Source of the DNA: CBDUXZ01 sp965371325 [NCBI: uncultured bacterium]
Lineage (GTDB): Bacteria > JAUYMQ01
DNA: 10,037 nucleotides
Assembly (NCBI GenBank): GCA_965371325.1
Contig: CBDUXZ010000036.1
Coordinates: forward strand, 1-10,037
Direction of reading: 5' to 3'
The notes beneath the pieces are model-generated. The model worked only from the letters and a program-made list of their open reading frames with translations. It ran no database searches and was not told where the DNA came from. Position numbers and translations under genes: made by a program. This document shows positions 1,102 through 10,037 of this stretch, in pieces (position 1 is the first letter of the stretch; every line of letters starts with the position of its first letter).

Positions 1102-1722
1102 TTGAACGATAAACAAGCGATCCAAGCTGTGAAAAACGGAAGAACCGGGGGCGGCGAGGGGGAGACCCGCGAGGCGCTTCTCGAGGCGGCGTTTCACTGC
1201 GCCGTGCGCTTCGGGTGGCAACGCGTTCGCATGAGCGACGTGGCCGCCCGCGCGAAAGTGTCCCGTCAGACGCTCTACCGGCACTTCCGAACCAAGGACG
1301 GTCTGGCCCAGGCGCTCGCCCTCCGCGAGCAGGATGCATTCCTCGAAGGCTTTCGACAGGCCTTCGAGGCGCACGACGATCTTTACGAAGCCGTCGTTGC
1401 TGTGGTGACCTGGTCTCTCAAGCACGCCGAATCGCATCCGTTGCTCAGCCAGGCCATCGAGGAGCCCGCCAGCGGACTCCTCCCCTTCGTGACAACCAGG
1501 TCCGCGCCCCTGATGATCCGAAATTGCCTTCTCGGCGCCGAACTCCTCGTTGCTATGAATCCGAGCATCGATCCCGAGACCGTGGCGTTGCTCACCGATG
1601 TCATCACGCGCGAGATGTTCAGTCATACCATTGCCCCCACCGAGCCCATCGACGTGGTTGCCGCGCGGCTCGGTACGCTCGCCGTCAGGGTGGTTGACGG
1701 CGGAAAGGAGCACACCCCGTGA
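1102..1722 (+). CDS. TetR family transcriptional regulator
   Basis: A 206-residue cytoplasmic DNA-binding repressor of usual TetR length. Residues about 22-68 form the TetR N-terminal domain: the opening helix ETREALLEAAFHCAVRFGW, then the helix-turn-helix MSDVAARAKVSRQTLYRHF (about 44-62) and the following KDGLAQAL. The rest (about 70-200) is the variable ligand-binding and dimerisation domain, from which the ligand cannot be read. The start is TTG, chosen because of the strong Shine-Dalgarno site just upstream; the first 20 residues are a flexible Gly/Lys-rich tail. Its TGA stop overlaps the GTG start of the diiron oxygenase gene by four bases (GTGA), so the two are almost certainly co-transcribed and translationally coupled. 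The likely job is control of itself and the oxygenase through the palindromes upstream. Confidence 0.92.
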   Translation: MNDKQAIQAVKNGRTGGGEGETREALLEAAFHCAVRFGWQRVRMSDVAARAKVSRQTLYRHFRTKDGLAQALALREQDAFLEGFRQAFEAHDDLYEAVVAVVTWSLKHAESHPLLSQAIEEPASGLLPFVTTRSAPLMIRNCLLGAELLVAMNPSIDPETVALLTDVITREMFSHTIAPTEPIDVVAARLGTLAVRVVDGGKEHTP

Positions 1723-2804
1723 GTACCGTTCGCCGCTACACCCTCCCCGTCGAGCAAACGCAGTGGCAGATCCCGGGCCAGCTCGAGACGACGTTCAACT
1801 GGGAATACAATGATATGCGGGAAAACCTTCTCACCCTTTACGAGAAGGGGAAGGAGCGTCAGTGGAACGCCTCGAACCGCATCGACTGGTCCCTCGATAT
1901 CGATCCCGAAAATCCCATCCAGATTCCCGATCACTACATCGCCATCTACGACACGCCCTACTGGCAAAAGATGACCGATAAAGAGAAGGTCAAGGCGCGC
2001 CATCACTTCCAGTCGTGGCAGTTCTCACAGTTTCTTCACGGAGAGCAGGGCGCGCTCATCTGCACGGCCAAGATCGTCCAGGCGGTACCCGATACCGACT
2101 CGAAGTTCTATGCCGCCACGCAGGTGATCGACGAAGCGCGGCACGTGGAAGCCTACAGCCGCTACCTCCACGACAAGCTCGAGCTGGCCTACCCGATCAC
2201 CCCCACCCTCAAGAACCTGCTGAACGACGTCATCACCGACTCTCGCTGGGACATTACCTATCTCGGGATGCAGATTCTCATCGAGGGTCTCGCCCTCGCA
2301 GCCTTCGGGCTCATCCGGGATCTCGCCCAGAACCCCCTGGCAAGCTCTCTTAACGCCTACGTCATGCAGGACGAGTCGCGTCACGTGGCCTTCGGCCGCA
2401 TGTCGCTCGCGGATTACTACCCGCAGCTCAGCGATCATGAGCGCAAGCAGCGGGAGGAGTTCGTGGTGGAGGCGAGCTACCTCATGCGCGACCGCTTCCA
2501 GAGCGAGGAGGTCTGGGAGCAGCTCGGGCTGCCCGTGAAGGAGTGCGTGGAGTATCTCGACAAGTCCGACATCATGCGCCAGTACCGCAAGATGCTCTTC
2601 ACCCGCATCGTGCCGAACATCAAGCACATCGGTCTCTGGGGCCCGACGGTCCAGAAGGCCTACGCGGACATGGGCGTTATCGACTTCTGTGACCTCGACG
2701 TCGAGGGATTGATGGAGCAGGACGATCAGTACGCCATCAACCTGGACGCCCAGCGTGCAGAGGTCGCGACAACCATCGAAGCCGGCAGGGCCGTGAGCGC
2801 CTGA
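1719..2804 (+). CDS. Ferritin-like diiron oxygenase (AurF/R2-like superfamily)
   Basis: A 361-residue, mostly helical soluble protein with a full carboxylate-bridged diiron ligand set: Glu109 (in HGEQGAL), Glu139 and His142 (DEARHVEAY, the first ExxH), Glu189 (IEGLALAAF), Glu219 and His222 (DESRHVAFG, the second ExxH). This pattern is shared by ribonucleotide reductase R2, R2-like oxidases and AurF-type N-oxygenases. The N-terminal WNASNRIDWSLDID stretch resembles the entry region of AurF-like proteins, so an O2-activating oxygenase or N-oxygenase is my best reading; the substrate is unknown. There are no signal peptide or membrane segments. The GTG start overlaps the TetR stop and is preceded by GGAAAGGAG (1702-1710) at 8 bases. 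An intrinsic terminator follows 22 bp after the stop. Pairing with a private TetR regulator suggests an inducible oxidation of a lipid or xenobiotic; this is inference. An iron-storage ferritin is unlikely given the length and ligand layout. Confidence 0.85.
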   Translation: MSTVRRYTLPVEQTQWQIPGQLETTFNWEYNDMRENLLTLYEKGKERQWNASNRIDWSLDIDPENPIQIPDHYIAIYDTPYWQKMTDKEKVKARHHFQSWQFSQFLHGEQGALICTAKIVQAVPDTDSKFYAATQVIDEARHVEAYSRYLHDKLELAYPITPTLKNLLNDVITDSRWDITYLGMQILIEGLALAAFGLIRDLAQNPLASSLNAYVMQDESRHVAFGRMSLADYYPQLSDHERKQREEFVVEASYLMRDRFQSEEVWEQLGLPVKECVEYLDKSDIMRQYRKMLFTRIVPNIKHIGLWGPTVQKAYADMGVIDFCDLDVEGLMEQDDQYAINLDAQRAEVATTIEAGRAVSA

Positions 2805-2826
2805 TCGGATCTTCATCTAGAATGAG

Positions 2827-2854
2827 GGGCCGGCTTTTCAGCCGGCCCTTTTTT
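2827..2854 (+). terminator. Rho-independent terminator after the diiron oxygenase gene
   Basis: A perfect 9-bp GC-rich stem (2827-2835 with 2840-2848, arms GGGCCGGCT and AGCCGGCCC) with a 4-base loop TTTC is followed at once by six T residues (2849-2854). It ends the TetR-oxygenase unit, and it lies only 17 bases upstream of the hydrolase start. Confidence 0.92.
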
Positions 2855-2871
2855 CTGACGTGAGGAGAGAA

Positions 2872-3678
2872 ATGCCAAAGATCAAAGTGAGTGATGTCTC
2901 GCTGAACTACGAAATGATGGGGGAGGGCTCAACGGTTCTGCTCGTAACCGGGATCGGCGCCGACTCCCTCGCCTGGGCGATGAACGTTCCGACCCTCATG
3001 GGCAAGCACAAGATCGTCACCGTTGATAACCGCGACGTCGGGCTCTCCGACAAATCCACGACCTCCTACACGATGGAGCAGATGGCCGACGACACCATCG
3101 GTCTCCTGAAGGAGCTCGATCTCGGGCCGGTTCATCTCGTGGGACAATCAATGGGCGGGATGATCTGCCAGCAAGTGGCGCTGAAGGCGCCCGAGCTGCT
3201 CCGCTCGCTCGCCCTCGTGACCACCATTTCGCGCGTTCCACCGGCGTCGCGGCTTCTTCTCAACCACTGGACGCGCGTCATCGAGAAACTCGGCATGGAG
3301 GGGTTCGCCGACTTCGTGATCATCATGACTTTCGCCGGGCAGTACATCGAGAACAACTGGGACGGCCTTCAGGTTTTCAGGGAGATGATGCTGGCCCACC
3401 TGGCCCAGAATCCCGTCACGGCCGATTCTTTCCGGCGGCAGGGGGAAGCCGTGATGGGACATGACGTCCTCGACCGCCTGGGCGAAATTCGCCTTCCCAC
3501 GCTCGTCATGGGCGGGGGCGAAGATATCCTCGTCCCGCTCCGCTTCTCCGAGCAGATTGTGGCCGCGGTTCCCGGCGCCGAGCTACTGGTGCTGAAGGAG
3601 TGCGGGCACGGCATGAACGTGGAAGACCCCGGGAAGTTCAACGACGCGCTGCTGGGCTGGTTCGCGCGGAACGAGTAA
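2872..3678 (+). CDS. Alpha/beta hydrolase
   Basis: A 268-residue alpha/beta-hydrolase-fold protein of ordinary length. The triad is visible: nucleophile Ser93 in GQSMGGM, acid Asp218 in GGGEDILVP, and His246 in CGHGMNVEDP. TGIGADSLAW (26-35) sits at the oxyanion-loop position and VDNRDVGLSDKS (51-62) is the usual NxRGxGxS-type block with Asp in place of the first Gly. A cap region runs about 120-190. No signal peptide or membrane helix is seen, so it is probably cytoplasmic. I chose ATG 2872 because AGGAG (2863-2867) precedes it and the family pattern begins MPKIKVSDVSLNYE; a GTG at 2860 would add four residues and overlap the ribosome binding site. Relatives include esterases, lactonases and C-C bond hydrolases; the substrate cannot be read. 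It may act on products of the neighbouring oxygenase, but the terminator between them makes joint expression uncertain. Confidence 0.9.
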   Translation: MPKIKVSDVSLNYEMMGEGSTVLLVTGIGADSLAWAMNVPTLMGKHKIVTVDNRDVGLSDKSTTSYTMEQMADDTIGLLKELDLGPVHLVGQSMGGMICQQVALKAPELLRSLALVTTISRVPPASRLLLNHWTRVIEKLGMEGFADFVIIMTFAGQYIENNWDGLQVFREMMLAHLAQNPVTADSFRRQGEAVMGHDVLDRLGEIRLPTLVMGGGEDILVPLRFSEQIVAAVPGAELLVLKECGHGMNVEDPGKFNDALLGWFARNE

Positions 3679-5103: not shown

Positions 5104-6483
5104 TCAGGGCCGGTCCTGGTCCGCGTCGCCCTTCGTGACGAACCAGTTGGCCGCGTCGCTGAAAAGCGCCGGGTCGAGATCATCGCGGTTCGGATGCACA
5201 AAGAACGTCATCGGCGATTCGCGCAGAATGAAACCGTATTTTCGTAGGTGTTTCTCGGCGGTCGGGCTCATGACGACACACCAGATCTGCTGAACCCCCC
5301 GCGCCTGAAGCACGTCTACCGAGGCCGCAACGAGGTAGCGCCAGGCCTCGTCGTCCTCCGCGTCGGCAAGCGTGTCGACGATGTAGGCCACGTAGGGTTT
5401 GCGCTTCATGATCCGCAGTACCGCGTACCCCGCCACCTCGCCCTTCTCTTCATCCCCGCCGCCTGCGCCCTTACCTGTCCGCTCGGCGACGAGCCGCAGG
5501 TATTCCACGCCGGGCTGTGACGCGAACTTCCAGTGGAGGTAACGCCGGTCGCGGCGCACGATGACCCGGTAGCCTCCCTTCACGCGCTCCCAGAAATCAT
5601 CGAAGCGGGCGTCGAAGCGATCAATCGCGCGGATGCGGAGATCGCCCCCGGCCACGCTTGGCGTGCGGAGGATCAGCGAGAACGCCGCGTTCGCGACGGA
5701 CGTGAGAACTTTTCTGGCCGCGGGATTCGACACCCGTTTACGAACGATCGCGTCGGCGTCGAGCAGCTTCATGTAGGAGTGGAGGTGCCCGTCCCCCGGG
5801 CGCAGCCAGCCGAGGGACGTGAAGAGCGCCTCGGCGTCGGGCGTGGTCCCCAGAACGAGGCTCACGTCACTCTCCCGCGTCCACCTTTCCACCAGCCGCA
5901 CCCCCGCTCCCTTCGATCGCGCCTCGGGCGCCGAAACCAGCCCCGCGCTCCAGCTTGCGCGAAGCGATCTGCCGTTGGCCTCGAGCACCACGGGAATCGT
6001 TCCCAGGTGCCCCGCGATCTTCCCCTCGTGCCGGAAGAGATAAACCGGTGATCGGCCGGGTGTGACGTTCGGGTTGTGTTCGTACTGCCAGGCCCAGTGC
6101 TCGGGCGAGTGGACGAGGGTGATTTCCCTCGATACGCGATCGGCGAAACGGAAGAGCGCATCACGATCCGCGGGAACGAGCGGCGTGACCGGGTCACGGG
6201 TCGCGGGTGTTTCGGCCGAAGGCCCGCCGGCCTCCGCGGATCCGGAAGCTGCGGCGGGCCCGTCTCCGGCGCCGAGAAGGGTGGCAAAGTCGCCGACGCA
6301 TCCGACGGAGAGCACGTCGTCCATGGTGAGCGGCACGCCGAAGACACGCTCGAGCTCGGAGACGAGCGAGAGATGCGCCAGGGAGTCCCACCCCGGCACG
6401 GACTCCGGCGTGGCCTCAGGCGTGACTGCCCCGGGCGAGACGCCGAGCACGGAGACGAAAACGTCGACGATGCGTTTGTCCAT
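5104..6483 (-). CDS. Acyl carrier protein fused to a GNAT acyltransferase module
   Basis: A 459-residue cytoplasmic fusion. Residues 1-72 are an acyl carrier protein with the phosphopantetheine site Ser34 in PGWDSLAHLSLVSELERVFG. A Gly/Ala/Ser/Pro-rich linker (about 73-100) joins it to a long GNAT region. The first GNAT half has the cofactor-binding motif A, APEARSKGAGVRLVERW (185-201), and NTP-free TTPDAEALFTSLGW; the second half (about 285-430) begins RRYLHWKF and contains GEVAGYAVLRI and ends TAEKHLRKYGF. Such GNATs often acylate amino sugars in polysaccharide clusters. The ATG follows a weak GGAAG site, 17 bp after the FkbH stop. I infer that the carrier domain receives an acyl group made by FkbH and presents it in cis to the GNAT. 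A plain acetyltransferase with a vestigial carrier is the alternative. The TGA is followed one base later by the repeat copy at 5080-5102. Confidence 0.87.
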   Translation of the reverse strand: MDKRIVDVFVSVLGVSPGAVTPEATPESVPGWDSLAHLSLVSELERVFGVPLTMDDVLSVGCVGDFATLLGAGDGPAAASGSAEAGGPSAETPATRDPVTPLVPADRDALFRFADRVSREITLVHSPEHWAWQYEHNPNVTPGRSPVYLFRHEGKIAGHLGTIPVVLEANGRSLRASWSAGLVSAPEARSKGAGVRLVERWTRESDVSLVLGTTPDAEALFTSLGWLRPGDGHLHSYMKLLDADAIVRKRVSNPAARKVLTSVANAAFSLILRTPSVAGGDLRIRAIDRFDARFDDFWERVKGGYRVIVRRDRRYLHWKFASQPGVEYLRLVAERTGKGAGGGDEEKGEVAGYAVLRIMKRKPYVAYIVDTLADAEDDEAWRYLVAASVDVLQARGVQQIWCVVMSPTAEKHLRKYGFILRESPMTFFVHPNRDDLDPALFSDAANWFVTKGDADQDRP

Positions 6484-6501
6484 GTCAGGCCGGCTTCCGA
6501 C

Positions 6502-8214
6502 TCAGCGGGCGCGCGCGATGGCGACGTGGGAGGGCGGCGCGGGATCGTGGTGGGCCAGGTCAAGCGTGTAGCGCGTCTCATCATCGCTCTCGCCCGCGGT
6601 TTCAAAACCGGCGTCGAGCCAGAAACGCTCGCACAGGGCGTTCTTCGCCGTCGGGCGCCTGGATGCCTCCACGCGTGTGACGCCCGCGGCTTTCAGATCG
6701 GCGAGCAGCGCCGAGACGAATGCATGCTCGATCTTTTTCCCGATGACGCGGCAGCTCAAGAGAAACGTGTTGAACGTCGCGCGGTCCCCCTCGCGCTCAA
6801 TGATCGCCAGGCCTGTCCACCCCTCGTCGCCAAAGCGGTCCGTGACCCGAAGCCCCTGAAGAATGGCGCTTCCACCGGCGATCATGTCATCGAGATCCGC
6901 CTCCGTGTAGCGGCGCGTGGTGAGGTTGAACTGGTTCGTGCGCTGGGTGAGCTGGGCGAAGCGTGGGAGGGTGATCTTGTCGGGCGCCGCGATGCTCGCC
7001 TGTATCCCGAGGCTTTGAAGAAACTCTTCCTCCGTTGCGATCTTCGTGCGCGCTGACTTGCGTGCCCGTTCCTGGGCCATCATGCGTCCCCGGGAGCGAT
7101 CTTCCTCCGTCAGCGAGAGGGTATCGAACGCCGTTATGCGCGAAAGCCCTCGCTCATAGAGGGCTGGATCGCGCGGAACCTCCACCGTCATGACTTCGGG
7201 CAGGAGCGCGCGCATGCGTTCACGCTCAGTCGGATTATCGTCCCAGAACACGAACGAATCGAGACCGAGGCGAAGCTCCTTCGCGATCTCGCGCATGTTC
7301 TGCGTCTTGTCGTTCCAGTTGATGCGCATCGCCGCGAAATGATCGGGTTGGAGAACCATTTCGGGATGCGACTGGAGCACCTCGATGGCGTCATCGGGGT
7401 TGTTCGCGCTGTTGATTGCGAGAAGGATCCCCCGCCGGTGCAGCCCCAGAAGCCGTCGCTGGAAGGCCGTGAAGGCGTTGCCAGGCGCCGCGTCGCCGAG
7501 CTTTATGCCTGAAATCCCGTCCTCGCCCACGATCCCGCCCCACAGGGTGTTGTCGAGATCGAGCACGAGCACCTTTCGCACCCCTCCCGTGAGCGCCCGG
7601 ATAAACCCCATGGTCTCCCGCGCAAGATCCGTCAGTGCCGGACGTGATACGTCCATGCGCGCCAGAAAAACCATCTTCGGATCGGTCCAGACATCCTTTC
7701 CGATCCGGCCGGCGAGGGCTTCCACGTCCACCACGTATGCGCCTCTGAGCTTGCGGCAGGCGGCCGCCAGCTCTTCGTTGGCGGCGGCGATCATCGCTCG
7801 CTCGCCGAACGTGTCTCGCACGTCGTGTAGGCCCAATACCGGGGAGGAGGGGATCACGAAGTTGTGTATGAGGAGAATCCCGCTGCCGCGGGCGGCGCTC
7901 TCCGCCAGAGACGCTATTTCGCCGACCGTTCGGGAGACCTCGGCCCTTCGCGACTCTTCAGAGAGTTCCCAGAAGCGTTGCAGCAGCTGCCCGAAGAGCG
8001 GCGCGGGCGAGAGCGCGAGGATGGTCACGTCGGGCTCGAAGGCGCGCAGCTCGCTATCGGGATTGAGAATCTGCTGCGCGTAGGTGCCGAAGGGAGCGAT
8101 CAGAATCTCGCTGGTAAAATCCTGCGTCTCGAGCTCCTTCGCAAGAATCTCCTTCAGCGGATCGAGCGTGTAGTTCGAAAGGATCGCTATCCTGAGGGCG
8201 GTCTTCTTGCTCAC
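6502..8214 (-). CDS. FkbH-like HAD-IIIC family protein
   Basis: A 570-residue cytoplasmic protein of the long FkbH type. Residues about 1-200 are the N-terminal domain of long FkbH proteins (SGNH-like; ILSNYTLDPL, LLIHNF). Residues about 213-340 are the HAD core: motif I VLDLDNTLWGG with Asp219 and Asp221, motif II Ser269 in AINSANNPDD, motif III Lys303 in NDKTQN, and motif IV Asp325-Asp326 in WDDNPTERER. The C-terminal 410-550 is GNAT-like, opened by LTQRTNQFNLTTRRY. Studied FkbH enzymes take D-1,3-bisphosphoglycerate, dephosphorylate it and transfer the glyceryl group to a carrier protein. The carrier here is likely the ACP domain encoded just downstream. The GTG start overlaps the deacetylase stop by four bases and is preceded by GGGGAGAGGG (8221-8230). 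Motif II reads NSANN where I expect CSKNN in classical FkbH, so the loaded substrate may differ. Confidence 0.93.
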   Translation of the reverse strand: MSKKTALRIAILSNYTLDPLKEILAKELETQDFTSEILIAPFGTYAQQILNPDSELRAFEPDVTILALSPAPLFGQLLQRFWELSEESRRAEVSRTVGEIASLAESAARGSGILLIHNFVIPSSPVLGLHDVRDTFGERAMIAAANEELAAACRKLRGAYVVDVEALAGRIGKDVWTDPKMVFLARMDVSRPALTDLARETMGFIRALTGGVRKVLVLDLDNTLWGGIVGEDGISGIKLGDAAPGNAFTAFQRRLLGLHRRGILLAINSANNPDDAIEVLQSHPEMVLQPDHFAAMRINWNDKTQNMREIAKELRLGLDSFVFWDDNPTERERMRALLPEVMTVEVPRDPALYERGLSRITAFDTLSLTEEDRSRGRMMAQERARKSARTKIATEEEFLQSLGIQASIAAPDKITLPRFAQLTQRTNQFNLTTRRYTEADLDDMIAGGSAILQGLRVTDRFGDEGWTGLAIIEREGDRATFNTFLLSCRVIGKKIEHAFVSALLADLKAAGVTRVEASRRPTAKNALCERFWLDAGFETAGESDDETRYTLDLAHHDPAPPSHVAIARAR

Positions 8215-9379: not shown

Positions 9380-9404
9380 AATAAGGGGGACTTTCCCACT
9401 TATT
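9380..9404. repeat. Hairpin at the end of the methyltransferase gene
   Basis: AATAAGGGGG (9380-9389) pairs with CCCACTTATT (9395-9404) around the loop ACTTT, with a single G-A mismatch. The methyltransferase TAA stop (9402-9400) lies inside the stem. Immediately beside it is a second short mirror, AAAGG/CCTTT, around GACAGTC (about 9359-9378). There is no clean T run on the - strand, so read-through into the deacetylase gene is plausible. The 145 bases between the methyltransferase stop and TTG 9254 hold no convincing gene. A short CCAGA/TCTGG hairpin lies at 9289-9301, and I see no good sigma-70 promoter. Confidence 0.5.
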
Positions 9405-10037
9405 TTCTTGGTGCCTTGAACGGTCCGGCGGGTTTGATTTCCCCGCGGGCCGCGAAGGCGTGGAGCGTGTTCGAGACGTAGACGCGCCCTCCCGTCGCCT
9501 TGCAGATTGCGCGGGCCAGGCTCACGTAAACGCCCTTCGCGGCGGCGAGCTTCGCGCTCCGGCTCCCGGCGACCGACGCGATCGGCTGCAGCACGTTGAA
9601 GGTGACATCCTTGAATTCCGACCTGGTCAGCAACTTCGAGAGCGTCTCGCGTGAGAACTGGACGAGATGGTGCTTTGCCTCGAGCAGATGCTTGCGGGGT
9701 TTCCGGAATCGCGTAACGCGCCCGACAGCGCGTTTCAGGTGCGCGTAGGGGAGGTGGAAGTCGATGTTGGGCGTCTGGACGAACAGCACGCCGCTTTCAT
9801 CCAGCAGGCGCGCGGCCTTCGAAAGGATGGGGCCCGGGTCGGCCAGGTGCTCGATAACGTCCCAGAGCGTGATGACCCGGAACATGCCCTCGCGGAAAGC
9901 GACATTCTCAAGCCGTCCGAGCGCTACCCGATGCAGGCCGAGTTTCTCTCGGGCGAAGTTCACCGCGTGGGGCGACAGCTCGAGGCCGTTCGCTTCCCAC
10001 CCGCGCTCCGCCGCGCGCTTCAGGAAGAAACCCTTGC
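9400..10037 (-). CDS. Class I SAM-dependent methyltransferase (5' end outside the window)
   Basis: The C-terminal 211 or so residues of a methyltransferase; the frame is open to the right edge, so the true start is beyond the window and the GTG at 9963 is internal. Visible from the edge are KGFFLKRAAERGWEANGLEL (end of the glycine-rich motif I, then the acidic Glu that would bind the SAM ribose), SPHAVNFAREKLGL, and the hallmark VITLWDVIEHLADPGPIL followed by ARLLDESGVLFVQTPN. This is the Methyltransf_11/23-type fold used on sugars, lipids, quinones and other small molecules; the acceptor cannot be read. The C-terminal part has a KPRKHLLEAKHHLVQFSRETL stretch common in polysaccharide-cluster methyltransferases. 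It is transcribed in the same direction as the deacetylase-FkbH-ACP-GNAT genes downstream, separated by a hairpin and about 145 bp, so it may be the first visible gene of the same cluster. Confidence 0.9.
   Translation of the reverse strand, partial: KGFFLKRAAERGWEANGLELSPHAVNFAREKLGLHRVALGRLENVAFREGMFRVITLWDVIEHLADPGPILSKAARLLDESGVLFVQTPNIDFHLPYAHLKRAVGRVTRFRKPRKHLLEAKHHLVQFSRETLSKLLTRSEFKDVTFNVLQPIASVAGSRSAKLAAAKGVYVSLARAICKATGGRVYVSNTLHAFAARGEIKPAGPFKAPRK

Follow-up and report, generated by a model that had tools for sequence, protein, structure and literature searches.

Carrier-dependent N-acylation and N-glyceroyl amino sugars have both been described in bacterial glycans. We compare them with a locus in a 10,037-nt stretch of DNA (the window), positions 1 to 10,037 of contig CBDUXZ010000036.1 from the uncultured bacterium CBDUXZ01 sp965371325, where a gene for an FkbH enzyme adjoins a gene for an acyl carrier protein (ACP) fused to a GNAT-type acyltransferase. 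In the O-antigen system of Flavobacterium psychrophilum, a dedicated ACP (wfpD), acting with the PglD-like wfpG, is the predicted acyl donor for the 4-amino position of a UDP-sugar (PMC6519341). There, however, the acyl group is 3,5-dihydroxyhexanoyl, made by a set resembling fatty acid synthase (FAS), and the acyltransferase is a PglD homologue (PMC6519341). The available part of that report mentions neither a fusion nor FkbH, the latter not having been specifically looked for. N-Glyceroyl amino sugars, suggested as a product in the preliminary description of the window, do exist in bacterial glycans, in Neisseria (PglB2 with GATDH; PMC6959607) and, as a D-glyceroyl amino sugar, in Pragia fontium (PMC10609480). 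The Neisseria system differs in that a separate C-terminal domain of PglB2 is proposed to attach the glyceroyl group, the term "acyl carrier" being absent from the text of that paper (PMC6959607), while no genes for the glyceroyl sugar appear in the part of the P. fontium report examined (PMC10609480).

In Campylobacter jejuni, pseudaminic acid carries dimethylglyceric acid (DMGA), a methylated glyceric acyl group, and the locus for flagellar glycosylation includes cj1302, a gene with an FkbH domain (PMC3068675, PMC7099621). DMGA sugars were not seen in strain 12664, whose cj1302 is a pseudogene; nor was DMGA seen in strain 12661, for which no loss of cj1302 is stated, and the gene linked genetically to DMGA in print is cj1295 (PMC3068675, PMC7099621). 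The flagellin glycosylation islands of enterobacteria and Aeromonas likewise contain dedicated ACPs, together with LuxE and LuxC (PMC4875605, PMC7874193), but their named loaders are AMP or CoA (coenzyme A) ligases and LuxE, and "FkbH" is absent from the available text of PMC4875605.

On the loading side, the FkbH module of the suomilide and varlaxin nonribosomal peptide synthetases (NRPSs) is believed to charge a carrier with glycerate, which is methylated and sulfated in that bound state (PMC10143770). These are assembly lines, whereas the unit in the window has a GNAT and no assembly line. The tetronate and methoxymalonate pathways pair FkbH with a stand-alone ACP to make glyceryl-ACP from 1,3-bisphosphoglycerate, but the product enters polyketides and requires extra dehydrogenases or a FabH-like enzyme (PMC7489565, PMC3679948). 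No ACP-GNAT fusion accompanied by FkbH was found among the literature matches listed, which were mostly titles and beginnings of abstracts, with most subscription journals outside the coverage, and a literature search directed specifically at such fusions gave no papers. What is new at this locus is the built-in form of the carrier, a putative compact variant of chemistry already in print. For comparison, the amide in an NRPS is made by a condensation domain, the C-terminal domain of PglB2 is presumably an ATP-grasp enzyme, and acp genes presumably lie near cj1302 in C. jejuni; rfbK/rfbL of V. cholerae may offer a further precedent.

The fusion and its four-gene unit

The fusion protein (P0001) consists of an ACP (residues ~1–72), a variable linker (~73–103) and a GNAT-like region (104–459), and its C-terminal sequence is ANWFVTKGDADQDRP. 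The ACP half matches PF00550 over residues 4–70 (E = 8.1e-7; 29.7 bits, cut-off 20.8). The sequence GWDSL begins at residue 31, which places the serine of the DSL motif at Ser34, and PEARSKGAG begins at residue 186, which gives a motif A loop of R189-x-x-G192-x-G194. Both sites are located where the preliminary description had put them. The loop conforms to the R/QxxGxG/A pattern in the window (RSKGAG, 189–194) and in the only fused ortholog found (RSRGAG, locus L001, described below). The acyltransferase part comprises about 350 residues, of which Pfam matches span only ~129–226. PF00583 is passed by the protein as a whole (21.4 bits versus 20.7), with no single stretch passing alone, while PF13527 (23.9 versus 25) and PF13508 (16.6 versus 27) stay below their cut-offs. 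When the profile of this GNAT family was searched against solved structures, the best match was aminoglycoside 2'-N-acetyltransferase (1m44, E = 0.0018), and the matches also included 4my0, a GNAT whose function is unstated (E = 0.0023).

The adjoining protein, P0002, is a clear member of the FkbH family, matching TIGR01686 (E = 2.7e-87; 292.9 bits, cut-off 146.65) and Pfam FkbH_N (31.2 bits, cut-off 27), and aligning to the solved structure of BF1531 (3slr, E = 3.5e-47). Its HAD motif, DLDNTLWGG, starts at residue 219, and LSCRV starts at residue 486, so that the conserved cysteine is Cys488; the SCRV motif is also present in the FkbH proteins of loci L001, L014, L017 and L022. This cysteine is presumably the glyceryl acceptor, as reported for OzmB, and FkbH, in line with its family, also has a C-terminal region that resembles GNATs. 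The profile matches of both proteins, their short spacing (Table 1) and the single open reading frame (ORF) of the fusion confirm the pairing first described for this DNA. The two-protein route proposed with it was too narrow, however, as the pair closes a unit of four genes that also includes a methyltransferase and P0003. Transcription runs on the minus strand from the methyltransferase through P0003 and FkbH to the ACP-GNAT fusion, with a 4-nt overlap between the end of P0003 and the start of FkbH.

A pattern-based scan with P0001 (six short peptide patterns, which find close relatives) over 84,980 species genomes returned three loci, and the fusion was present in only one of them, L001 of the Deltaproteobacteria metagenome-assembled genome (MAG) G001. 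This independent assembly contains the same four genes, with identities to the window of 77% for the methyltransferase, 72% for P0003, 72% for FkbH and 77–78% for the fusion, the last counted over residues 1–448, where the L001 contig stops. Fusion residues 403–459 have a 79%-identical counterpart at the end of a different G001 contig, C100, which is most simply the continuation of the L001 contig. The ORF is fused alike in L001, so a misassembly of the window does not account for the fusion. The dN/dS ratios (nonsynonymous to synonymous substitution rates) between the two loci are 0.14 for the fusion, 0.20 for FkbH, 0.17 for P0003 and 0.17 for the methyltransferase (dS 0.8–1.1). Within the fusion, they are 0.23 for the ACP, 0.16 and 0.09 for the N- and C-terminal parts of the GNAT, and 0.23 for the linker, the segment where identity is lowest (58% across 24 aligned codons) and which L001 has in a shorter form. 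The four-gene unit is thus real and under purifying selection. A phylum-level survey around G001 returned G001 alone. Matches to P0001 by tblastn in plasmids comprised 12 records, all from Azospirillum and none covering 80% of the protein, and there were none in phages. A DNA-level plasmid search with the FkbH and ACP-GNAT pair gave seven records, with matches spanning 1–2% of the query.

The other two members of the unit are less well defined. The true start of P0003 is probably near residue 58, because the earlier residues have no alignment in L001. Neither Pfam nor NCBIfam yields a match to P0003 up to E = 0.1; the protein also has no match in the PDB, and its AlphaFold model has a mean pLDDT of 37.6. 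The motifs FHxE, HGH and GWWxM are kept in three aligned members (two close, one at 26% identity) and may bind a metal. A relation to the NodB deacetylase, suggested by eye from motifs, gave no Pfam match and an hhalign probability of 0.1 with very thin profiles. P0003 has only one plasmid homologue (22% identity, 65% of the query covered, E = 7e-6), whose gene comes directly after one for a GNAT and belongs to a polysaccharide locus with nucleotide-sugar genes around it.

In the window, the unit is followed on the same strand by an NnrS gene. On contig C100, a gene for a protein without a Pfam match and then one for a short-chain dehydrogenase/reductase (SDR; L012) follow instead, on the strand of the unit. 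In L001, the methyltransferase is preceded by a gene on the opposite strand. The plus strand of the window encodes an aldehyde dehydrogenase, a TetR regulator, an AurF-like oxygenase and an alpha/beta hydrolase; the last three stand in a row (1102–3678) and could form a small operon unrelated to the present finding.

Table 1. Coordinates of the four-gene unit and of sites within it, in window positions.
Feature	Position	Strand	Basis or remark
Methyltransferase P0004, S-adenosylmethionine-dependent	9400..10035	minus	5' end outside window; longer 317-aa ortholog in L001
P0003, family not recognized, at most 387 aa	8211..9374	minus	ORF
FkbH P0002, HAD-IIIC family, 570 aa	6502..8214	minus	TIGR01686
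ACP-GNAT fusion P0001, 459 aa	5104..6483	minus	PF00550 and GNAT motif; fused ortholog in L001
Ser34 codon, expected phosphopantetheine site	6382..6384	minus	computed from start at 6483
Gap from FkbH stop to ACP-GNAT start, 18 nt	6484..6501	minus	

The carrier and its partners in other genomes

The fused ACP is the likely partner of FkbH, because the two are adjacent and because G001, by profile counts, has one FkbH and two PF00550 domains, one in the fusion and the other adjoining a ketosynthase of FabF size. An assembly line using the carrier, not seen at the locus in the preliminary description, was sought more widely. At the locus the claim holds, with no ketosynthase among the nine window proteins scanned with Pfam profiles. 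In G001, no NRPS condensation domain was found, and the search for polyketide synthases (PKSs) gave four ketosynthase matches: the FabF-size protein beside the other ACP, two short partial matches, and one in a 1012-residue frame, which is presumably type I or PfaA-like.

The sequence of the carrier itself points in the same direction. In addition to itself and its L001 ortholog, the fused ACP was compared by score with 20 other ACPs, leaving out the fused carriers of L026, L027, L033 and L059. The best six scores all belong to FkbH-linked carriers from loci without a ketosynthase (L030, 116; L049, 108; L014, 98; L022, 95; L028 and L025, 88). Scores elsewhere are 47–80 for FkbH carriers of ketosynthase loci (8 rows), 74 and 58 for FAS-type ACPs, and 43 and 43 for those associated with AMP ligases. 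WDSLxH is the sequence around the serine in the window and L001 and, among the others, in 7 of 12 FkbH loci without a ketosynthase and 0 of 8 with one (one-sided Fisher test by hand, ~0.01, for a motif picked post hoc and rows that are related). The 12 exclude the L017 ACP (WDSV), which does not adjoin its FkbH, and L058 is represented by its stand-alone ACP instead of the one fused to FkbH. Taken together, adjacency, elimination in G001 and the likeness of the ACP to several FkbH-linked carriers from non-ketosynthase loci support the earlier assignment of FkbH as the loader, and loading of the fused ACP by FkbH is likely.

An N-acyltransferase as the partner of FkbH, the other half of the original proposal, recurs in several architectures. 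In a Terriglobia MAG (locus L014; G002, contig C218), the genes encode, in order, a NeuB-type protein (PF03102), a MaoC-SDR fusion, FkbH, a separate 85-residue ACP, a GNAT and a polysaccharide deacetylase. This GNAT is 21% identical to P0001 overall and shares the tail W-x-x-T-K-x-D-x-D-Q-D-R-P with it. In Thiohalocapsa (locus L022; G003, contig C74), FkbH and an ACP are followed by an AAC(3)-type N-acetyltransferase (PF02522, 3.9e-33) and a VOC protein. An AAC(3)-like domain (PF02522) is fused directly to FkbH on two plasmids, from Maritalea (L027:8194-10653) and Rahnella (L033:8158-10671), and the Maritalea gene is flanked by pseB and a gene of the N-acetylneuraminate synthase family (NeuB-type). 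An Erwinia locus (L059) carries a near-identical FkbH.

On plasmids of Azospirillum thermophilum and A. ramasamyi (2 of the 12 records examined), a GNAT with 26–28% identity to P0001 over residues 104–455 belongs to a polysaccharide locus (L024:5607-13062, L048:5478-13062) with a deacetylase, an ACP, an AMP ligase, asnB and nadE. The loader can thus be swapped, since this GNAT and its ACP come with an AMP ligase. The ACP of this locus has an IDS serine site, unlike the other ACPs. Thus, an ACP, a varying loader and a varying N-acyltransferase recur together. A dedicated ACP and acyltransferase are located within a glycan locus in the relatives L014, L024 and L048, whereas none stands next to a gene of this kind in the case of the unit itself: its neighbours include no glycan gene. 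Three GNATs of the P0001 family (L002:8309-9442, L002:11008-12114 and L003:6120-7211) have a motif A glycine loop short by two residues and may be inactive or use another donor.

FkbH itself was found by tblastn in 107 plasmid records, of which 60 were listed and 19 examined; the choice was non-random, the stretches were of unequal length and the PLSDB tables were incomplete. A ketosynthase gene occurs in the examined stretch at 8 of the 19 loci (L029, L031, L050, L053–L057), ten have no annotated ketosynthase (L025–L028, L030, L032, L033, L049, L058, L059), and one (L060) has no annotation. No FkbH was found in 14 control genomes. A MaoC-SDR fusion is recurrent beside FkbH (L014:5801-7009, L027:10703-12172, L028:11820-13268, L059:8668-10062), has an ACP-like end in L027 and L059, and might remodel the carrier-bound acyl group. 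At L025, L032 and L049, all on alphaproteobacterial plasmids, FkbH and an ACP adjoin MBOAT O-acyltransferases, which suggests FkbH-loaded O-acylation.

Proposed acyl transfer and alternative readings

On balance we judge it probable, by a modest measure, that a C3 acyl group loaded by FkbH is passed by the GNAT half to an amine, probably that of a surface amino sugar. FkbH would take D-glyceryl from 1,3-bisphosphoglycerate, strip its phosphate and charge the phosphopantetheine arm at Ser34. The methyltransferase may then O-methylate the carrier-bound glyceryl or modify the acceptor, and P0003 may prepare the acceptor. The charged ACP would swing via the linker to the fused GNAT-like half, which would transfer the C3 acyl moiety onto an amine; an amino sugar of a surface glycan is the most likely acceptor. 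Transfer in cis and a sugar acceptor are both plausible. Hints of an amino-sugar acceptor come from the 1m44 match of the GNAT profile, the polysaccharide locus of the P0003 homologue and the Pse genes of G001. Contig C394 of G001 (L045) carries a pseudaminic-type cluster with PseB, PseC and PseG above their cut-offs, two NeuB homologues and a carbamoyltransferase. As PseB, PseC, PseG and the NeuB homologues are present, G001 probably makes amino-sugar intermediates. A more specific idea, which we put forward tentatively, is that the fusion is a self-contained protein with the carrier inside the N-acyltransferase. A C3 acid derived from glycolysis, possibly methylated, would then stay on the enzyme, with neither CoA nor an assembly line. 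Compared with a separate ACP and with the AAC(3)-FkbH fusion, the ACP-GNAT fusion would represent the tightest of the layouts with which bacteria attach glyceryl groups to surface sugars.

Several observations weigh against this reading. The GNAT assignment is near the Pfam cut-offs in P0001 and below both in L014, and the glycine loop is altered or shortened in the relatives L014, L013, L002 and L003. The AlphaFold model of P0001 (mean pLDDT 46.1) is too poor to be used for the reach of Ser34 to the active site. Enzymes that act on proteins are likewise among the matches of the GNAT profile, for example N-alpha-acetyltransferase 30 (E = 0.0059) and N-myristoyltransferases (E ~0.02). Glycosyltransferase and nucleotide-sugar genes are absent from the immediate surroundings of the unit, both in the window and in the MAG contigs examined, and the GNAT next to the P0003 homologue is not detectably like P0001. 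G001 encodes a PseH-like protein (75.3 bits, below the cut-off of 93.1), and therefore the fusion need not be its PseH. As regards the loader, the 1012-residue type I-like ketosynthase frame lies on a separate 3-kb contig of G001, and the carrier and ketosynthase counts are those of a genome of unstated completeness. Two FkbH-linked carriers from loci without a ketosynthase score low (L032 from S. meliloti, 73; L058, 35), and WDSLxH was chosen after the sequences had been seen, among rows that are not independent. In the FkbH tree (21 rows; L025, L027 and L031 were dropped from 24 for mismatch to the motif pattern used), ketosynthase and non-ketosynthase contexts are not cleanly separated. The window and L001 form a pair (100/99) within a set of eight (96/95) that also contains two ketosynthase rows, L055 and L056, while the remaining five ketosynthase rows group together, weakly (86/87), inside the other set of 13.

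The alternatives differ mainly in the role given to the GNAT half. It might use acetyl-CoA or be inactive, with FkbH still loading the fused ACP and the glyceryl-ACP serving some other transferase, perhaps an O-acyltransferase. This is unlikely: MBOAT O-acyltransferases do adjoin FkbH and an ACP at 3 of the 19 plasmid loci, and GNATs of the P0001 family occur on contigs without a PF00550 match (C221 of G002, C36 of G003), yet no other acyltransferase is present among the window proteins scanned or in the L001 unit, the fusion is retained in both assemblies, and motif A is intact in P0001 and L001. Delivery of the acyl group to a protein, peptide or lipid amine instead of a sugar would agree with the matches to N-terminal acetyltransferases and N-myristoyltransferases and with the absence of a sugar gene adjoining the unit in the window. 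We consider it distinctly unlikely, as relatives of the GNAT, FkbH and P0003 outside the unit are often found in polysaccharide or nonulosonic acid loci. GNAT loading domains are also known from CurA and GphF, where a GNAT lies beside an ACP in polyketide loading modules. By analogy, the GNAT half could load the ACP in cis from an acyl-CoA, with FkbH supplying a second unit. The faint match of the GNAT profile to GphF (E = 0.088) makes this conceivable, but FkbH is already a loader, the unit has no ketosynthase to use a starter, the better matches of the profile are N-acetyltransferases and the relatives occur in glycan loci, all of which render it improbable.

Finally, the unit might supply methoxymalonyl-ACP or a tetronate precursor to a PKS elsewhere in the genome, which we regard as highly improbable. 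An FkbH, a methyltransferase and an ACP do resemble the methoxymalonate set, ketosynthase genes are present at 8 of the 19 plasmid FkbH loci examined, and G001 has a type I-like frame, if on a short contig. However, that set includes two dehydrogenases and an O-methyltransferase, and tetronate pathways include a FabH-like enzyme (PMC7489565). No dehydrogenase is found in the unit of the window, as far upstream as the window reaches, or of L001 (one SDR lies beyond it, at L012), nor is a FabH-like enzyme among the window proteins scanned or the L001 ORFs, no genome-wide search having been made for either. In addition, G001 has no condensation domains, and the serine site of the ACP is unlike those of the eight ketosynthase loci.

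If the proposed transfer of FkbH-loaded glyceryl by the fused GNAT is correct, glycolysis would be tied directly to the decoration of surface glycans via a carrier acting in cis, and the pair would constitute a two-enzyme route to N-glyceroyl amines. FkbH would then gain a general role beyond polyketides. The combination of FkbH, an ACP and an N-acyltransferase provides a testable gene rule, which would predict glyceroyl groups in glycans that lack known genes for them.

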